A stretch of DNA of 22,237 bases from a virus. The position numbers and the translations under genes are program-made. Where the stretch lies: positions 1 through 22,237 of IMG/VR virus record IMGVR_UViG_3300049157_000043; one strand, 5' to 3'. Below, one piece after another: positions 2,840 to 15,900 of this stretch. The notes under the pieces were generated by a model. That model did no database searches, was not told where the DNA came from, and worked only from the letters and a program-made list of their open reading frames with translations. Position 1 is the stretch's first letter. The number at the start of each line of letters is the position of its first letter.

Positions 2840-3320
2840 GTTAATACACGAACCAAGTAAATGGGATCTACGTTTTTTTGCTTTAGCAAAAGAAGTAAGC
2901 ACATGGTCTAAAGATCCTTCAACTAAAACCGGCGCAGTTATAATTAACGAAGAAAAAATAGTGATCTCCACTGGCTATAATGGATTTCCACGGGGTATGT
3001 ATGACGGGCCTGAGTTATATGAAAACAGGAATATAAAATACACCCGTATTCTTCATGCCGACTTGAATGCAATCCTATCTGCAAAACAAAACGTAACTGG
3101 ATACACAATATATACTTATCCCTTTTTCACATGTGCAACATGTGCTCTAGCCATTATTCAAGCAGGGATAAAGACGGTCATATCGCCGGAGTTCCAAGAT
3201 GCCGGGTTACAAAAAAGATGGAACCAATCAACTGAACTCGCGAAAACTTTTTACAGGGAATCAGGGATTGACTTCAAGCTCATGGAGATCTCATATGCTA
3301 GACTGGAAGAAGTATCCTAA
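2829..3320 (+). CDS. dCMP/cytidine deaminase-family protein with variant HAD motif
   Basis: A 163-residue protein of the zinc-dependent deoxycytidylate deaminase family, which makes dUMP from dCMP for dTTP synthesis. Seen: WDLRFFALAKEVSTWSKDPS at the N-terminus, TGAVI, GYNGFPRG (substrate loop), HADLNAIL at 76-83 and TCATCA with Cys102 and Cys105, followed by IIQAGIK. His76 and the two Cys would hold zinc. The usual catalytic Glu of H-A-E is Asp78 here, so activity may be reduced or altered. The start at 2829 (ATG) is preferred over an upstream ATG at 2745, because the N-terminus then matches the family and the overlap with the preceding gene drops to 11 bases. Confidence 0.82.
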   Translation: MKHKLIHEPSKWDLRFFALAKEVSTWSKDPSTKTGAVIINEEKIVISTGYNGFPRGMYDGPELYENRNIKYTRILHADLNAILSAKQNVTGYTIYTYPFFTCATCALAIIQAGIKTVISPEFQDAGLQKRWNQSTELAKTFYRESGIDFKLMEISYARLEEVS

Positions 3321-3681
3321 TTTCAGCCGTGAAGAATTCACTTGCAGATGCGGCTGCCAGAAAAATGAAATGGACCCACAGTTTCTGGAACTAATTCAAA
3401 TCCTTCGAGAGAATGTCTCAACCCCTTTGATAATCAACAGCGGATTCCGTTGCAATGCTCATAATAATGCCGTCAGTAAGACTGGATTCTACGGACCGCA
3501 TACTACCGGAAGAGCTTGTGATATAAAGACATGTTATCATAATGCTTACTATCTAATCATGGCCGCCACACGTTTACCCTTTACAGGGATAGGAATAAAA
3601 CAATCTGGCTCTGTTCCTAATCGCTTCATACACCTGGATATCTTGGATGGCCCTAATAGACCACGTATATGGTCTTACTAA
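3295..3681 (+). CDS. Peptidase M15-type endolysin, 128 aa
   Basis: Zinc peptidase of the M15 (D-Ala-D-Ala carboxypeptidase/L-Ala-D-Glu endopeptidase) type, expected to cut cell-wall peptides for lysis. Residues 10-20 (NFSREEFTCRCGC) match the family's N-terminal helix and Cys cluster. INSGFRCNAHNNAV precedes the zinc motif GPHTTGRACD (His69, Asp76), and FIHLD supplies His113 with Asp115. At 128 residues it is one compact catalytic domain with no separate wall-binding domain or signal peptide, so it needs a holin or another route to the wall. The start at 3295 has GGAG at 3284-3287; the longer frame back to 3199 lies inside the deaminase gene and lacks such a site. It overlaps that gene by 26 bases. 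Confidence 0.88.
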   Translation: MLDWKKYPNFSREEFTCRCGCQKNEMDPQFLELIQILRENVSTPLIINSGFRCNAHNNAVSKTGFYGPHTTGRACDIKTCYHNAYYLIMAATRLPFTGIGIKQSGSVPNRFIHLDILDGPNRPRIWSY

Positions 3682-3692
3682 CAAAAAATTCC

Positions 3693-3721
3693 TTTACAAC
3701 TAGAAATCAATATGTAATAAT
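3693..3721 (+). promoter_or_regulatory. Probable sigma70-type promoter
   Basis: TTTACA at 3693-3698 and AATAAT at 3716-3721 each match the sigma70 boxes at five of six positions and are separated by exactly 17 bases. The site is in the longest gene-free stretch on this strand, just after the endolysin gene. Transcription would start near 3728, right before the structured RNA segment and the Sak4-like gene. Confidence 0.55.
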
Positions 3722-3727
3722 ACATAA

Positions 3728-3890
3728 CCATATGAAGGTATCTTTCTCGTATACCCGAGCAGGGTTTTCCCCCCGATCGCCCCTGCTGCCGGGGAAGGGT
3801 GAGTGGTTAAAACAGTGTTGGTTACTCCTCTGCACAGGAGACCGTCCGAAACGCTGGGCTATACCGTCGGGCCACCACTCACCCTTTTTA
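3728..3890 (+). ncRNA. Structured non-coding RNA or leader element
   Basis: A GC-rich, foldable block in otherwise AT-rich DNA, downstream of a likely promoter. A perfect 13-bp stem pairs 3795-3807 (aagggtgagtggt) with 3874-3886 (accactcaccctt) and is followed by a short T-run. Inside it, GGT(TA)CTCCT at 3820-3829 pairs with AGGAGACC at 3836-3843, and CCGA at 3846-3849 can pair with TCGG at 3867-3870, giving a three-way junction. Upstream, AGCAGGG (3758-3764) pairs with CCCTGCT (3781-3787). This competes with CCCC/GGGG (3780-3783 with 3791-3794) and TTCCCC/GGGGAA (3767-3772 with 3791-3796) pairings. It could be a small RNA ending at its own terminator, or a leader controlling the operon. No known RNA family was recognised. 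Confidence 0.5.
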
Positions 3891-3917
3891 AATACATAAA
3901 GAAATGAAAGGGACAAA

Positions 3918-4739
3918 ATGCCGAATACAAAGGATATAAAATTACACTCTGAAAGTATCCTTGCACTTGGTTTTGCAGGATCTGGAAAGACAGCAGCTTT
4001 TGCTACCCTTCCTGGAAAGAAATTTCTCTACGTATTTGATCCAAATTCACTTGCAACACTCAAAGGACAAGATATTGACTATGAAGAATTCGTAGCTGAG
4101 CACATGGATCTGGATGCCGTCACGCTGGCCGCCGATAGACGAGATAGAATAAGCAAAAGACCTGAACCAAAAACATATGTTGAATTTGAGAAAGATATTG
4201 AGACCAAAATCAGAGACAATTTCTTTGATGACTATGACGTTATAGGATTTGATTCTCTTACTACCCTCACAGATATTGTTATGGACAGAATTATGTACCT
4301 TAACAATAGATTTGGAAAGTGGCCAGAACAGGCTGATTATACAGCTACAATCAATACTGTAACAAAGATTTTACGTACAGTTACATCCTTCAAAGCACTG
4401 ATTTATGTAACAGGCCACTTGGAATTTAAACAAGAAGATAGTACAGGAAGATTTCTTAACACCTTATCTTTACTTGGACGCCTTCGTGTTAGGGCGCCTC
4501 TGTTATTTAGTAATCTATACCAGTTTTATGCAGAAGAAAACAACGACAAAAAAACTTCATGGTATGTACGGACAGAGCCAGATCGCTATAATCCGTACCT
4601 AAGAAAATCCCGAGGCATGAAAAACCTAAATACAGTTGAAGATATAACTGTACCTGACGATGCTTGGTCAGATTCGATTGAAGGATTTGGACTAGGTAAA
4701 CTAATCAAAGAAGCGTCTTCGATAGTCGAGGCCGCGTGA
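3918..4739 (+). CDS. Sak4-like RecA-fold ATPase (phage single-strand annealing/recombination)
   Basis: A 273-residue P-loop ATPase of the AAA_24 / Sak4 type. Walker A is GFAGSGKT at residues 18-25 and Walker B is DVIGFDS with Asp112. A later VTGHLEF strand fits the position of sensor residues in RecA-fold proteins. Sak4 proteins promote single-strand annealing and homologous recombination in phages and usually work with a phage SSB, which fits the next gene. ATG at 3918 with GAAAGGGA upstream. The gene ends with tandem stops (TGATAA). It is the first gene after the promoter and structured RNA. Catalytic detail is by family inference. Confidence 0.8.
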   Translation: MPNTKDIKLHSESILALGFAGSGKTAAFATLPGKKFLYVFDPNSLATLKGQDIDYEEFVAEHMDLDAVTLAADRRDRISKRPEPKTYVEFEKDIETKIRDNFFDDYDVIGFDSLTTLTDIVMDRIMYLNNRFGKWPEQADYTATINTVTKILRTVTSFKALIYVTGHLEFKQEDSTGRFLNTLSLLGRLRVRAPLLFSNLYQFYAEENNDKKTSWYVRTEPDRYNPYLRKSRGMKNLNTVEDITVPDDAWSDSIEGFGLGKLIKEASSIVEAA

Positions 4740-5768: not shown

Positions 5769-5989
5769 GCGGGGCACTAGGCATCGCAAATCTCATCATG
5801 GCAGTCTTGACCTTGGTTGAGCAAGGAGTAGTTACTGCAACTAGAGCGAAATCAATCATCTCACAAGGACGTGATGAAGACTGGGATGAAGCACGGTGGG
5901 AAACAGAACTCACTGACTTAGCTGAAAAGTCTGACAGTCTTTATTCTGATACTCAAGAAATGCTGAAGAACCTTAGACAACCTACATGA
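5762..5989 (+). CDS. Small membrane-associated protein, 75 aa
   Basis: ATG at 5762, overlapping the lipoprotein gene by 7 bases, with AAAGGAG at 5749-5755. Residues about 2-24 (LGGALGIANLIMAVLTLVEQG) are hydrophobic with Gly and Ala and could cross or lie on the membrane. The rest is a charged helical region (RDEDWDEARWETELTDLAEKSDSL). Together with the two preceding genes it forms a compact cassette ahead of a terminator. The pattern resembles phage lysis cassettes, but no specific family is recognised, so a lysis role is inference from position. Confidence 0.55.
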   Translation: MLGGALGIANLIMAVLTLVEQGVVTATRAKSIISQGRDEDWDEARWETELTDLAEKSDSLYSDTQEMLKNLRQPT

Positions 5990-6000
5990 ATGATAACAGG

Positions 6001-6025
6001 AGAGGGGCTTTATGCCCCTCTTCTT
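6001..6025 (+). terminator. Probable rho-independent terminator
   Basis: A perfect 8-bp GC-rich stem, AGAGGGGC (6001-6008) with GCCCCTCT (6014-6021), loop TTTAT, then TCTTATA. It lies in the 55-base gap after the membrane/lipoprotein cassette. The T-run is short, so termination may be partial. Confidence 0.65.
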
Positions 6026-8730: not shown

Positions 8731-9744
8731 ATGCCTTATGCTCCTGAGGGGAATTTACACACGGCAGAAATAGTATTTGTCGGGGAAGCTCCTGCAAAGT
8801 ATGAGATTATGTACGGCAATCCTTTGTCAGGTCCAAGTGGATGGGTATTCGATGACTGCTTGGACGCCGCCAACATTAGTCGTTCAACGTGCTATATAAC
8901 AAATGTCTTTGATTTCATGGTAACAAAAGATGATCAAAAAAATATCTTGGATCGTGACAAAAATATACTTTATAAACCAAGAAGCGGCTTCACGGAAAAA
9001 GGCAAGATACATATAGATCGCTTGATGGATGAGCTGCAAGAATCAAAAGCAGATGTTATATGTACTCTCGGAAACCCCGCACTTGAAGCCTTGACTGGGC
9101 GGCGCGGTATCTTTAAGTGGCGGGGTTCTATACTTAATTCCAGTATTCTGCCTGGAAGGAAAGTTGTGCCTACTATACACCCTGCAAATTCCTTACACGG
9201 ACAATATATAAACAGATACTACATACGAAGTGATTTTAAGAGAGTTAAAAAGCAATCTGAATTTCCTGATATCAGGCGGCCCCCTTACAAACTCAGACTA
9301 TTCCCATCCTTTATTGAATGCATATCATTCTTGAATTATTTACTAAAAGACAAGCCACAAGTATCTGTAGACATTGAAGTCTCACATAGACAAGTAAGTA
9401 GAATATCTTATGGCTGGTCAGAGTATGAAAGTATCAGTATCCCTCACGGAGAAGCCGGCTGGAATTTTGAAGAAGAAAAGTTATTATGGCTGAAAACTGC
9501 TGAAGTACTTGAAGATCCGGATATCCCTAAGATAATGCAGAATGGTATATTTGATATACAATTCCTTATGTCAACACACCACATTCATGTCCCGATTTCT
9601 TCTATTAATGACACTATGTATGCACATCACATAGTGTATCCAGACTTTAGGGCGGGCCTGGCATCTATGACAGCCACATACACAGAGCAGCCTTACTATA
9701 AAGACATGATCAAACATGGTCCTATAGATAAAGAAGATGGATAA
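8731..9744 (+). CDS. Uracil-DNA glycosylase-like domain fused to a 3'-5' exonuclease domain (front part of a split DNA polymerase A)
   Basis: Residues 11-170 match the UDG family 4/5 fold: GEAPAKYE at 18-25, GNPLSGPSGWVFDD, TNVFDF at 57-62, CTLGNPALEAL and TIHPANS at 148-154. The N-terminal Fe-S Cys motif of family 4 is absent. Residues 205-337 form a DnaQ-like exonuclease: VDIE at 213-216 (Exo I), NGIFDIQF at 271-278 (Exo II), and NDTMYAHH. The protein ends after PYYKDM, before the Exo III Tyr-x3-Asp, which instead appears at the start of the polymerase ORF (YSCLD). So this is the N-terminal part of a UDG-exo-Pol chain, divided by a 458-base insertion. Assembly of the halves is inferred. Confidence 0.85.
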   Translation: MPYAPEGNLHTAEIVFVGEAPAKYEIMYGNPLSGPSGWVFDDCLDAANISRSTCYITNVFDFMVTKDDQKNILDRDKNILYKPRSGFTEKGKIHIDRLMDELQESKADVICTLGNPALEALTGRRGIFKWRGSILNSSILPGRKVVPTIHPANSLHGQYINRYYIRSDFKRVKKQSEFPDIRRPPYKLRLFPSFIECISFLNYLLKDKPQVSVDIEVSHRQVSRISYGWSEYESISIPHGEAGWNFEEEKLLWLKTAEVLEDPDIPKIMQNGIFDIQFLMSTHHIHVPISSINDTMYAHHIVYPDFRAGLASMTATYTEQPYYKDMIKHGPIDKEDG

Positions 9745-9753
9745 CACACCGGT

Positions 9754-9927
9754 ATGAAAACAAGAATCTCCGCCGTCAAACGTGCTAAGTTAATACAGAA
9801 AAGATATCAACGTGACCTAATGTTTGCAAAAACAACGTACGGTAATAAGCAAGAAGTATTTGACATAGGAATCTTTTTAGCAATAATAATAGGCTTAGGA
9901 ACATTCTTAGCGTTATGGCCAAGCTAG
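9754..9927 (+). CDS. Small membrane protein within the polymerase-splitting insertion, 57 aa
   Basis: ATG at 9754, ten bases after the stop of the exonuclease ORF, running to TAG at 9925-9927. The N-terminal half is basic (KTRISAVKRAKLIQKRYQRD). Residues 37-55 (FDIGIFLAIIIGLGTFLAL) form a clear transmembrane helix near the C-terminus. The ribosome site is weak. A membrane protein inside a replication operon is unusual and no family is recognised. Its stop overlaps the next start by 13 bases. Confidence 0.5.
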   Translation: MKTRISAVKRAKLIQKRYQRDLMFAKTTYGNKQEVFDIGIFLAIIIGLGTFLALWPS

Positions 9928-10199
9928 TAAGAGCCTTCGGGGTATATAACCAGGAGCTGTCTAAGAAATTGCCTTCTGATATGTTTCAGTTAATAAAGAC
10001 TTTAGAGGAAAAGCTTTGTCGTTATAATATGGGAATCTATATACGCATCGGAATAAATGATCACAGAAAAAGATGTGTGATATGTAACAAGATATTCACA
10101 GCGCACAGAACGACAGAGATAACATGTAAGGATAAGGAATGTATGACTGCCAGGAAAAGACAAAGAGACAGAAGAAACAAACTAATATATAGGAGTTAA
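9915..10199 (+). CDS. Zinc-finger protein within the polymerase-splitting insertion, 94 aa
   Basis: ATG at 9915, overlapping the upstream small gene. The N-terminal half is helical (YNQELSKKLPSDMFQLIKTL). The C-terminal half holds RCVICNKIFTAHR, then TCKDKECMTARKRQRDRRNK: a C-x2-C and a C-x4-C pair, followed by a basic tail. This motif is common in phage HNH-endonuclease-associated and ribbon-type DNA-binding proteins, but the HNH catalytic core is not visible. It is in the same frame as the polymerase ORF, separated by one TAA at 10197-10199. A role in insertion mobility or replication is speculative. Confidence 0.65.
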   Translation: MAKLVRAFGVYNQELSKKLPSDMFQLIKTLEEKLCRYNMGIYIRIGINDHRKRCVICNKIFTAHRTTEITCKDKECMTARKRQRDRRNKLIYRS

Positions 10200-10202
10200 A
10201 AG

Positions 10203-11708
10203 TTGAATACAAACGAGGCAAATGCCAAATACAGCTGCTTAGATGGCGTAGTAACTTATGAAATCTGGAAAAAGATAAGCCCAGACATACATAAACAAGG
10301 TCATGACTATAGCTATGACCAAGTTATCAAACTTATCAAGCCCTTAAGTTTCATGATGACAAGAGGATTGAGAGTAGACAGGGAAGCTTTGAAAGAAACA
10401 CATGAAAAAGTATCTCTTGATATTGACGAGAAAAGCGAAGAACTAACAAAGCTATGCGGCATATCTCTGAATCCTGGAAGTCCAAAGCAGATGCAACAAT
10501 ACTTCTACGGTATTCTCGGTTTGCCTATTTATACAAAAAAAGGGAAAGCAACAACAGATGATAAAGCTCTGGCTAGAATTGTCCGTAAAGGTGGACGTGG
10601 ATCAAAGGAAGCTAAACTATGTCAAGAAATTCGAAGACTTAGAAAACTCAAATCTTCCTATCTAGACGTTACAGTTGATGAAGACAATAGAATTAGATGC
10701 TTCTATAAGCCGCGCGGTACAAGAAACGGTAGAACATCTAGTGCTCAAACTATCTTCGGAACTGGACTCAATCTCCAAAACCTAGATCCTCGTTTTAAGA
10801 GCTTTATAGTTCCAGATGAGGGATATGTCTTTTTTGAGATGGATAAGCGGCAAGCTGAATGGGTGGTGACGGCCTATGTCAGCGGTGACGGGCAGATGAT
10901 TGCCGCCGTAGAAAGTAAAGAGGATATCCATGCACGTACAGCATCTCTAATCACTGGATTGCCGGTCGACATCATATTACGTGAATCTAAGATCGTCGGA
11001 CACCATACTGATCCCGATACTATCCTCGAACTCAGGCGCACTAACATCCCTGAAATTGAAGATCTTGCGATATTCTTACCTCGTATATTCTCCTGTAGGC
11101 AAGCCGGAAAGAAATCTAATCACGCACTGAATTATATAATGATGTTTAGGCGATTTGCACTTGAGAATGAAATCCCAGAAGATGATGCAAAAAAGATTGT
11201 AGCCGGCTATCATAGGAGTTATCCAGGACTTGAATTATGGTACGACAGAATTAAGACAGAACTGTCAAAGGATCGCATACTGACAAATTGTTTCGGGCGC
11301 AGTAGACGTTTCCTAAACGAATGGTCTGATGATCTGATCCGTGATGCCGTGTCTTTTATTCCACAAAGTACTGTCGCTGATATCAAGAATGAGGCACTAA
11401 TCAAGATATATGATGATGAAGAAGACTTCATGTACAAAATAGATCTGATGGCTGAAGTTCATGATAGCATACTCATGCAGTATCCAATCAATAACTGGCT
11501 AGACATGGCAAAGGCAGTATTACGCTGCCGTGATTATATGAACCCTGTTATGACTTACAGCGCAAGGAGTTTTAAAATTGGTACTGATATGAAAATAGGA
11601 ACTTCTTGGGGTGGAGGAGATATGATGGATGTCTCTATTACTGACAACATAATGGAACTGGCAGATAGGTTGGAGACCTCCTATGCAAAGCTCAAGGAAG
11701 CTACATGA
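10203..11708 (+). CDS. Family A DNA polymerase, C-terminal part (split from its exonuclease), 501 aa
   Basis: TTG start at 10203, seven bases after AGGAG at 10191-10195. Residues 1-20 carry the Exo III element YSCLD (Tyr10, Asp14), which belongs to the exonuclease domain of the upstream ORF. The polymerase domain follows: TRNGRTSS (thumb/palm) at 173-180, motif A FEMDKRQAEWV with Asp214 and Glu219, motif B RQAGKKSNHALNYI with Arg299 and Lys303, and motif C VHDSI with His420 and Asp421. In motif B the residue at the place of E. coli Phe762 is His307. Family A polymerases of this size replicate phage DNA. The following helicase gene overlaps by 26 bases. Confidence 0.88.
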   Translation: MNTNEANAKYSCLDGVVTYEIWKKISPDIHKQGHDYSYDQVIKLIKPLSFMMTRGLRVDREALKETHEKVSLDIDEKSEELTKLCGISLNPGSPKQMQQYFYGILGLPIYTKKGKATTDDKALARIVRKGGRGSKEAKLCQEIRRLRKLKSSYLDVTVDEDNRIRCFYKPRGTRNGRTSSAQTIFGTGLNLQNLDPRFKSFIVPDEGYVFFEMDKRQAEWVVTAYVSGDGQMIAAVESKEDIHARTASLITGLPVDIILRESKIVGHHTDPDTILELRRTNIPEIEDLAIFLPRIFSCRQAGKKSNHALNYIMMFRRFALENEIPEDDAKKIVAGYHRSYPGLELWYDRIKTELSKDRILTNCFGRSRRFLNEWSDDLIRDAVSFIPQSTVADIKNEALIKIYDDEEDFMYKIDLMAEVHDSILMQYPINNWLDMAKAVLRCRDYMNPVMTYSARSFKIGTDMKIGTSWGGGDMMDVSITDNIMELADRLETSYAKLKEAT

Positions 11709-12927: not shown

Positions 12928-15900
12928 AATCATGAAGCCCTGGGACAAGGCGAGTCAATCTCTGAATGACTCTTTTTGCAGAAGGATCTGCATTTGCATA
13001 GGCATCACCTACAAGTATTGCTCTTTCCTTGGGTTGTATATCTCTGATATTCAACCACCAAGTTTTTGGGGGAACCCCTGGAGTAGAGAAATCTACTCTG
13101 TCCACTATCTTATCTAATACACGACGAGCAGATAATCTATTTAGCGCCCAGATTTTATTATCACCCAGGCTACGGGCATATGCCTTAGCATCGTCAAACG
13201 TATCTTTCTGAAGTATCTTGCCGCTGTCAATAATATTATCAAGTTCAGTAGCAAGTTCAAATCTTCGTGTATTTCCAATTCTTCTATAATACGTAGTCTT
13301 GTCCATAAAGGGTGCGATCGGGTTAGTGAAACCAATGGAATTACCTATTAGTGGAACATCTTTCAGGCGTTGTAAAGGCTGAGCTTCAAGGGAATCAGGT
13401 AGATCACCTGGTTTCCTGATATGTTCATATATGGAAGTTGGGATATCCAAGATGGGATTGGACGGAAAGACTTTTCGTGCGGCGGCTGTGGTACGCTCTG
13501 GGGACATGCCAATAACATCAATGTTAGGATCTTGGGACAATGACCGCGCCACGGGAGACACAATGCCGCTCACGTCCTGGGCCATTTGTGGGGTACGCCG
13601 CCCCGGTCGCTCAACGATTTCGGCTTCAGGTAAAACTTCTGGCCCGCGCCATACTGGTACATTGTTCCATGAGTCGCGGTTCGTTCCATAAGTACTGATT
13701 GCAGAAAATAACGGTATGCTGTCTGCTCCAGGTACAATTGACATAGCTTCTTTAATACCCGCCATAGTGTTTCGATAAACATCACTAGGTTCCTTACCAT
13801 CAAAGTACCAATCTCCCATTCCATTTGCAAAGGCAATGAATGGACGCATAGTTTGTTCAGTGGGAATCCTCATGTACATATATCTCTTTTCACCATTCTC
13901 ATCTTGATAGGAAAACGGAGTCATGAGAATAAGATTATTTGTTTTCACATCATCTGGAATTTGTCTCCAGCCTTCTTCATTTATCTGCCTATTCATTATA
14001 TTCCAGGCATAAACCATGGAAGTGTATTGAGTGATCTTTAGTCCAAATGTCTGCAGACGCTTAGCGGCTTCTTTAGTGGGACCTTTCCTCAAGATTGCTC
14101 CACCTAGCTCTCCGACGCCAGAAGCCCTGAACATACTCCTTATACCTTGGACAGATGCATTCAGGTATGGGAAAAAAGCATCTATTGTTTTTGTCAATAC
14201 GCCGCCTTGATCAAAATCTATTATCTCTCTTGCAATCCTTGCTGCTTCATCAGGCCTTTTGCCGTTCTTCAGTGCACGGTTAAATGCACTTACACGTACA
14301 AGAAGCTCTGCTCTCTCAGAAACATATTCAGCGGCAAACAAGGAACGTTGTACAACAGGATGCTTAAGCATCGGTCTGAATAATTGGCTTTCAGTGAATG
14401 TGTGAATATGTCCTTGTTGTGCGAGGAACTGCGTAGCTCCGCCTTCTTGAAAGAATTGCCTTGTGATCTTTCCGTAATCAGGTTTCATAACATCCCGAAA
14501 TACTTCAGTCACATCATTCCACTGCTGAGCTTTAGCGACAGGCCAAAAGGCAGAATATTCATCTGTCTTCATCCAGGCTCCGTGTAGCTCACGTGGAAAG
14601 TTACGAAGTGCAAATACAGCGTTGCTTCCTGTGGCAAGAGGTTTAACAATCTTTGCAAGAGAGGCCCAGGAAAGTGCCTCCATCAGGCCTCTGTTCATTA
14701 GCCTCCCGCTACCTGCAAACCACTCATCTGCAAATTCTGTAGGTATATAGAACTTCTTTCTTTCACCCCCAATCATAACACTCATTTCACTAGTCTTAGT
14801 ATTCTTCGGCTTCTTAATAAACACAAAACCATTTGTTGGATCAGCAAGACCTGCTTTATATAAAGCCCGGTTTGCTGTATTCCTTGCGATGCGGCTCTCT
14901 GTACGCATCATAAACTGATTAAGTAATAACTCACTGTCAGTTTCAATAAGTTCTCGGCCTCCCCTACCAAGGGCTTGTATACCGCTGCTCTTCACGGTGA
15001 TCTTACCCGCCCTGCCTCCTACTGTGAGATCGATCACCGGATCAACTGCGTCAATCAACTCAAGGGGAGTATAATCAAGTCTGGTGAGTCTAACAAGTTC
15101 ATCATCCGAAACAAGGCCAGCCTGCCAAAGTGATGTGACTTGATCCTTGATAGCATTGAAATAAGAATCTGCTCTCTTTTCCATCTGTAATATTACATCA
15201 GCGCCATGAGTTTGCCTAAGCTTGTCTAGAGCTGCCTGCGTGGTTTCGATATTATAGATAACTCCACCAACTTTGTGCGTATCTCTGTAACTAGTTATAG
15301 TCTGCAGGCGGCGCAACATAATCACTTGATCAAGCAAAGGCCTTTCTTTACTCGGCACTCCTCGAAATACAGGCTTACGTGCATCAAAGAACTTTACACG
15401 TGCTGAAGCAGGCGCTCCCCATACATTCAGAAATGATGTCAGAGTTCTTTCTCCGGGGCTTCCACTTGCTGTGCCTAGCTTCCTGGCAATTTCTCTTTTA
15501 ACTCCAGAAGATCTATCCCAAAATAACAAGGGAAGTTTCTTAACCTGTTCTTTAATTACCTCAGTCGCAGATCTATTAGATGCATCTGCACTATTTTCCA
15601 ATACTTTAATTATCTCATCTGCTGAACTTTTCGGAAGGATCGTAACACGACCTTCTCTTGCTACAGCCCTGGCGTTGTTGACAATAGTTTCTATTTCATT
15701 ATTCGTCAGGATTTGCCTAACATCAGCTTGCTTAATATATGAACGTAGACCTTGCTCAACTGCTTGTGGCCTTACGTCATCTGATACTTTAATAAATTGC
15801 TTAGTTAAGTCTCTAACACGGCGGGCGATATTTCTATCCAGAGCTGATCTATATGACGCAGGGTCAATGACATCTCTTGTCCTCTCAAGACGGGCGGCAT

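Follow-up and report, generated by a model that had tools for sequence, protein, structure and literature searches.

Canonical intrinsic terminators have a loop of 3–13 nt (median 4) in a stem-loop of at most 59 nt (PMC12207403), and lambda OOP exemplifies a phage sRNA transcribed from its own promoter (PMC12197685). The locus described here, positions 3682–3917, is the gap between the end of an M15 endolysin gene at 3681 and the start of a Sak4-like recombinase gene at 3918 in an IMG/VR virus record of 22,237 bases, which was analyzed at its full length and is referred to below as the window (Table 1). The gap appears to hold a real, lineage-specific element that is probably an unusual terminator in the leader of a phage operon. 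The early genes lie on the + strand in the order exonuclease-like, DUF6378, dCMP deaminase, M15 endolysin, and Sak4, followed by small genes of unproven function, a ParB-methyltransferase, and a DNA polymerase. The first ATG of the endolysin ORF lies inside the preceding ORF, and its true start is uncertain. A match to PHROG 124 bears out the Sak4 identity that an earlier note on this DNA had assigned to the gene after the gap, and the labels "SSB" and membrane protein that it gave to the two genes after Sak4 received no confirmation from PHROGs or Pfam. The closest named relative found of this little-studied phage lineage is Desulfofustis phage LS06-2018-MD01. Farther along the window (8731–11708), the gene for a family-A DNA polymerase comes in two pieces: the exonuclease part ends at 9744, right before an Exo III-like motif, and the polymerase part restarts at TTG 10203, preceded by AGGAG, after 458 bp that hold two small ORFs (9754–9927 and 9915–10199, the latter with a Cys-rich segment). 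In OP947158 and MW202489 the same polymerase is one ORF.

Table 1. Positions of the features in and around the endolysin–Sak4 gap, and of long-looped elements in related phages
Feature	Position	Strand	Basis
M15-family endolysin, upstream gene	3199–3681	+	PHROG 894 endolysin, E 5e-25; Pfam PF08291, E 4e-14
Sigma70-like promoter, extended −10 (TTTACA-17-AATAAT)	3693–3721	+	Promoter scans, shuffles; predicted
Upstream hairpin, CCCGAGCAGGG...CCCTGCTGCCGGG	3754–3793	+	Pairing probability 0.82–0.98
Closing stem P1, 13 bp, perfect, enclosing a 66-nt folded interior; arms AAGGGTGAGTGGT / ACCACTCACCCTT	3795–3807 / 3874–3886	+	Folding, stem scan
Stem interior, two predicted hairpins (3813–3856, 3857–3873)	3808–3873	+	Folding
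T5 run (TTTTT) at stem base	3885–3889	+	Sequence; predicted site of termination or pausing
Sak4-like recombinase, first gene downstream of stem	3918–4739	+	PHROG 124, E 2e-14
Long-stem, folded-loop, U-run elements between genes, related phages	L118:8287–8360; L120:1409–1477; L062:1139–1212, 3610–3679; L159:1844–1936; L167:5337–5430; L074:6710–6812; L029:12935–13013		

The closing stem is the only perfect 13-bp stem spanning no more than 130 nt in the whole window; for perfect stems of at least 11 bp, about one is expected per shuffled window and four registers were seen. When both strands were folded in 100-nt windows at steps of 4 bases, the lowest raw energy of all fell at 3789–3888 (−42.5 kcal/mol) and the top GC-corrected score at 3793–3892 (z −4.1), while 3794–3892 reached z −4.35 against its own shuffles. 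The complete stem has a pairing probability of 0.97–0.98. The perfect 13-bp stem running into a T-run that the earlier note described is thus present, and no other 100-nt stretch of the window folds as stably. The GC-rich block is likewise as claimed: GC content reaches 58% at 3750–3890, where 100-nt windows average 41% (sd 5.3%), and one other stretch, near 13525, is GC-richer. Like an intrinsic terminator, the GC-rich stem is followed directly by a U-run. Its apical part of 66 nt and total length of 92 nt, however, fall outside the limits of 3–13 nt for the loop and 59 nt for the stem-loop, which are TransTermHP criteria as quoted in PMC12207403, and a consensus scan did not report the element. 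The element may work like a terminator, but it is not a canonical member of the class. With an apical part so much bigger than canonical terminators have, its efficiency is doubtful and read-through is plausible. Also counting against efficient termination is a U-run of only five, partly paired, the first two T pairing with the AA of the stem.

RNase III-type processing sites between co-directional genes are known in T7-type phages. A perfect 13-bp stem between two co-directional genes might similarly be cut by RNase III or a related activity, or protect a 3′-end, parting the endolysin mRNA from the Sak4 mRNA. The stem is nonetheless short for RNase III, and a T-run beside a stem is a terminator trait, and we regard such a processing site as highly improbable.

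The same sequence had been read as a three-way junction, with two inner hairpins inside the stem, and as an upstream AGCAGGG/CCCTGCT hairpin in competition with two other pairings. All of these pairings are predicted to be present, but they do not exceed chance: by MFE the interior is not more stable than its shuffles (P 0.29), the upstream hairpin is of borderline stability against shuffles (P 0.065), and the alternative partners of the 5′ arm, inside the stem and upstream of it, are no stronger than in shuffles (P 0.64 and 0.99, respectively). The three-way junction and the competing hairpins are what GC-rich filling would yield anyway. Because the interior and the alternative pairings lie at chance and the upstream hairpin is borderline, what remains as true signal is the promoter together with the closing stem and its T-run. 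These results bear directly on a true switch, whether attenuator, riboswitch, or protein-bound leader, whose competing hairpins would choose between terminator and antiterminator. Folding of growing transcripts does yield transient alternatives (3801–3810 with 3818–3827 and 3777–3782 with 3797–3802), yet these compete at chance strength with a complete stem that wins, and we found neither an Rfam match nor a homolog displaying a conserved core. We consider a switch very unlikely, and the competing-hairpin version was rejected because its pairings are at chance level. The earlier suggestion of a small RNA or a leader attenuator therefore covers the likely roles, but its switch built from competing hairpins or a three-way junction is unsupported, given chance-level pairings and no homolog in the searched collections.

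A near-consensus sigma70 promoter had also been proposed, and the site is there, scoring 10/12 and carrying the extended −10 TG as well; transcription is predicted to start at ~3727–3730. Dinucleotide shuffles of 3682–3917 contain a 10/12 site in 2% of cases and one with TG in ~0.1%, a post hoc figure that is supportive rather than proof because the 4 kb around the gap has no more promoter-like sites than shuffles lead one to expect. Promoter scans saw no promoter-like site between the stem and Sak4, whose ATG lies 29 nt past the final T of the T-run.

Related phages, gathered via alignments of the polymerase, ParB-methyltransferase, and Sak4, plus the endolysin, show how the same boundary is arranged elsewhere. 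In the nearest relative (L110, IMGVR_UViG_3300033407_000043), whose Sak4 is 49% identical, the gap before Sak4 holds a conventional terminator (CCCCCATGG...CCATGGGGGCATTTTTT) and then TTGACC-17-CATAAT. This boundary resembles that of the window in combining a predicted terminator with a sigma70-like promoter in the gap; it differs in that its terminator is ordinary and stands before the promoter, the reverse of the window, and in having no sequence similarity to it. In a second relative, L216, the gap before Sak4 contains a promoter-like TTGACA-18-TACAGT, and in most others Sak4 overlaps or abuts the preceding gene, leaving no gap. The L110 and L216 gaps support a predicted transcription-unit boundary at the window's position. 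The stem might instead be a plain terminator of the endolysin unit, the promoter match being accidental and Sak4 being reached by read-through. Ordinary terminators do end the gene in some endolysin relatives (L292 and L294), the L110 terminator sits at this boundary, and the surrounding 4 kb is not enriched in promoter-like sites over shuffles. Nevertheless, more than 110 nt separate the stem from the stop codon of the endolysin gene, the gap holds an extended −10 promoter of a kind seen in few shuffles, and promoter-like sites precede Sak4 in L110 and L216 too, which makes this explanation rather unlikely in our judgment. Other hairpins were noted in passing. A different one lies upstream of Sak4 at L059:3150–3280 and L056:5510–5640 (GGTGCAGCTG.../GGTGCAGTCG...), with 79% identity between the two relatives and changes in the stem. 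The window itself has a conventional terminator-like hairpin at 5998–6024, an 11-bp stem and then a T-rich tail, after an ORF ending at 5989, and L110 has a strong terminator (9166–9207) in a comparable place.

In keeping with the statement that the locus matches no RNA family, covariance-model searches of the window and the region found none: an Rfam scan of the window gave no match at E ≤ 1, and a scan of the region at E ≤ 10 gave sub-threshold chance matches only (SNORD82, CRISPR-DR24, and Alpha_RBS). ARAGORN found 0 tRNA or tmRNA genes, and blastn against phage and plasmid records gave no real match to the element. Run on 48 whole records and on the loci of the relatives, a covariance model made from the window's sequence alone, and thus a weak probe for diverged homologs, returned plain terminators only or nothing, and no homolog; with filters off, it found plain terminators and noise only in the closest relative. 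No such RNA accompanying the endolysin was found downstream of 18 endolysin relatives, and the model was also empty over 31 loci. The phage and plasmid records and the fetched related-phage loci yielded no homolog that could show covariation. Several candidates were set aside. An interior 16-mer occurs in 24 viral contigs, all of which lack the flanking stem. The pattern GGTGAGTGGT-N50-80-ACCACTCACC occurs in six contigs that are not homologs, mostly GGTGAGT-type repeats with interiors that all differ; in these six (L262–L267), heptanucleotide repeats of this type lie beside hairpins, and a 10-mer is shared with the window's stem through the choice of pattern. A protein-coding reading of 3732–3896 (+) or 3710–3916 (−) was rejected, with codon usage that is not phage-like and no family matches.

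The main rival to a leader terminator is an independent phage sRNA gene, with promoter, ~160-nt body, and its own terminator, that would act in trans, on targets of the host or the phage, while Sak4 is transcribed otherwise. The signals in the sequence are consistent with such a self-contained layout, the GC-rich block stands within an AT-rich phage, the element was not found in kin, as expected of a recent gain, and own-promoter phage sRNAs such as lambda OOP are known (PMC12197685). Against it, no homolog was found that might show covariation, the interior structure is at chance, and Sak4 would be left without a visible promoter; we hold this reading to be unlikely, if a serious contender. 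Were it a stable sRNA, it would count as a new one among phages, with no known relatives.

Long-looped stems also occur elsewhere in the relatives. Across relatives and window, perfect stems of at least 10 bp with a loop of 61–110 nt have a T-run on the terminator side in 7 cases and on the wrong side in 0, compared with 4 and 3 for loops of 31–60 nt. The excess is modest because a looser scan allowing G-U pairs gave 26 matches, some within genes, versus 18 in reversed-sequence controls. Several of the elements directly precede the ParB-methyltransferase gene. In sequence they are unrelated to the window and, apart from a partial match between L159 and L162, to other loci, and an Rfam gathering scan of five of these loci was empty. 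A hairpin inside the L159 element (1884–1915) recurs at L162:1436–1467 with 84% identity in different surroundings, as if mobile. It is conceivable, though we think it improbable, that the element is a lineage-specific regulatory RNA, either a stable ~160-nt species or a leader that senses a protein of the phage (such as Sak4 or its neighbor), that tunes expression of the recombination genes, and that related phages have elements of equivalent function but unrelated sequence, likewise with a long stem and U-run, where their own operons join.

We favor, with about an even chance of being right, the reading of 3682–3917 as a transcription-unit boundary, in which the leader of the Sak4 operon would contain an atypically long-looped intrinsic terminator. 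Host RNA polymerase would initiate at ~3728, driven by the extended −10 promoter, and some would probably come in from the endolysin gene as well. After ~160 nt it would meet the 13-bp GC-rich stem and U5 run, acting as an intrinsic terminator with a large folded apical part. Some polymerases would stop at the U5 run, freeing a structured RNA of ~160 nt that may be stable, and the remainder would read through into Sak4 and later genes, where no promoter-like site follows the stem. In favor of this model are the strength of the stem and T-run, the promoter score, the gaps before Sak4 in L110 and L216, the one-sided T-runs of the long-looped stems, and the two ORFs across the element, whose codon usage is not phage-like and which have no family match. 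The terminator-then-promoter order in L110 and the G-U scan of only 26 versus 18 count against this model. If the element terminates as proposed, it shows how a little-studied phage lineage meters its recombination genes and adds to signs that these phages have terminators with large folded tops, overlooked by standard terminator finders.

Among known systems, attenuators and terminator-type riboswitches likewise place a structured leader with a terminator-like stem ahead of an operon, whereas the window leader has no above-chance antiterminator, phage-like coding ORF, or known aptamer. Lambda OOP-type sRNAs have, like the layout predicted for the window element, an intergenic position, a promoter, a short structured body, and a U-run end; the window element differs in having no known target or homolog and in being a predicted transcript. 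Intrinsic (Rho-independent) terminators differ in size, the window's 66-nt apical part folding on itself within 92 nt in total (versus the limits in PMC12207403), and resemble it in the perfect GC-rich stem, the U-run directly after it, and the location at a gene boundary.
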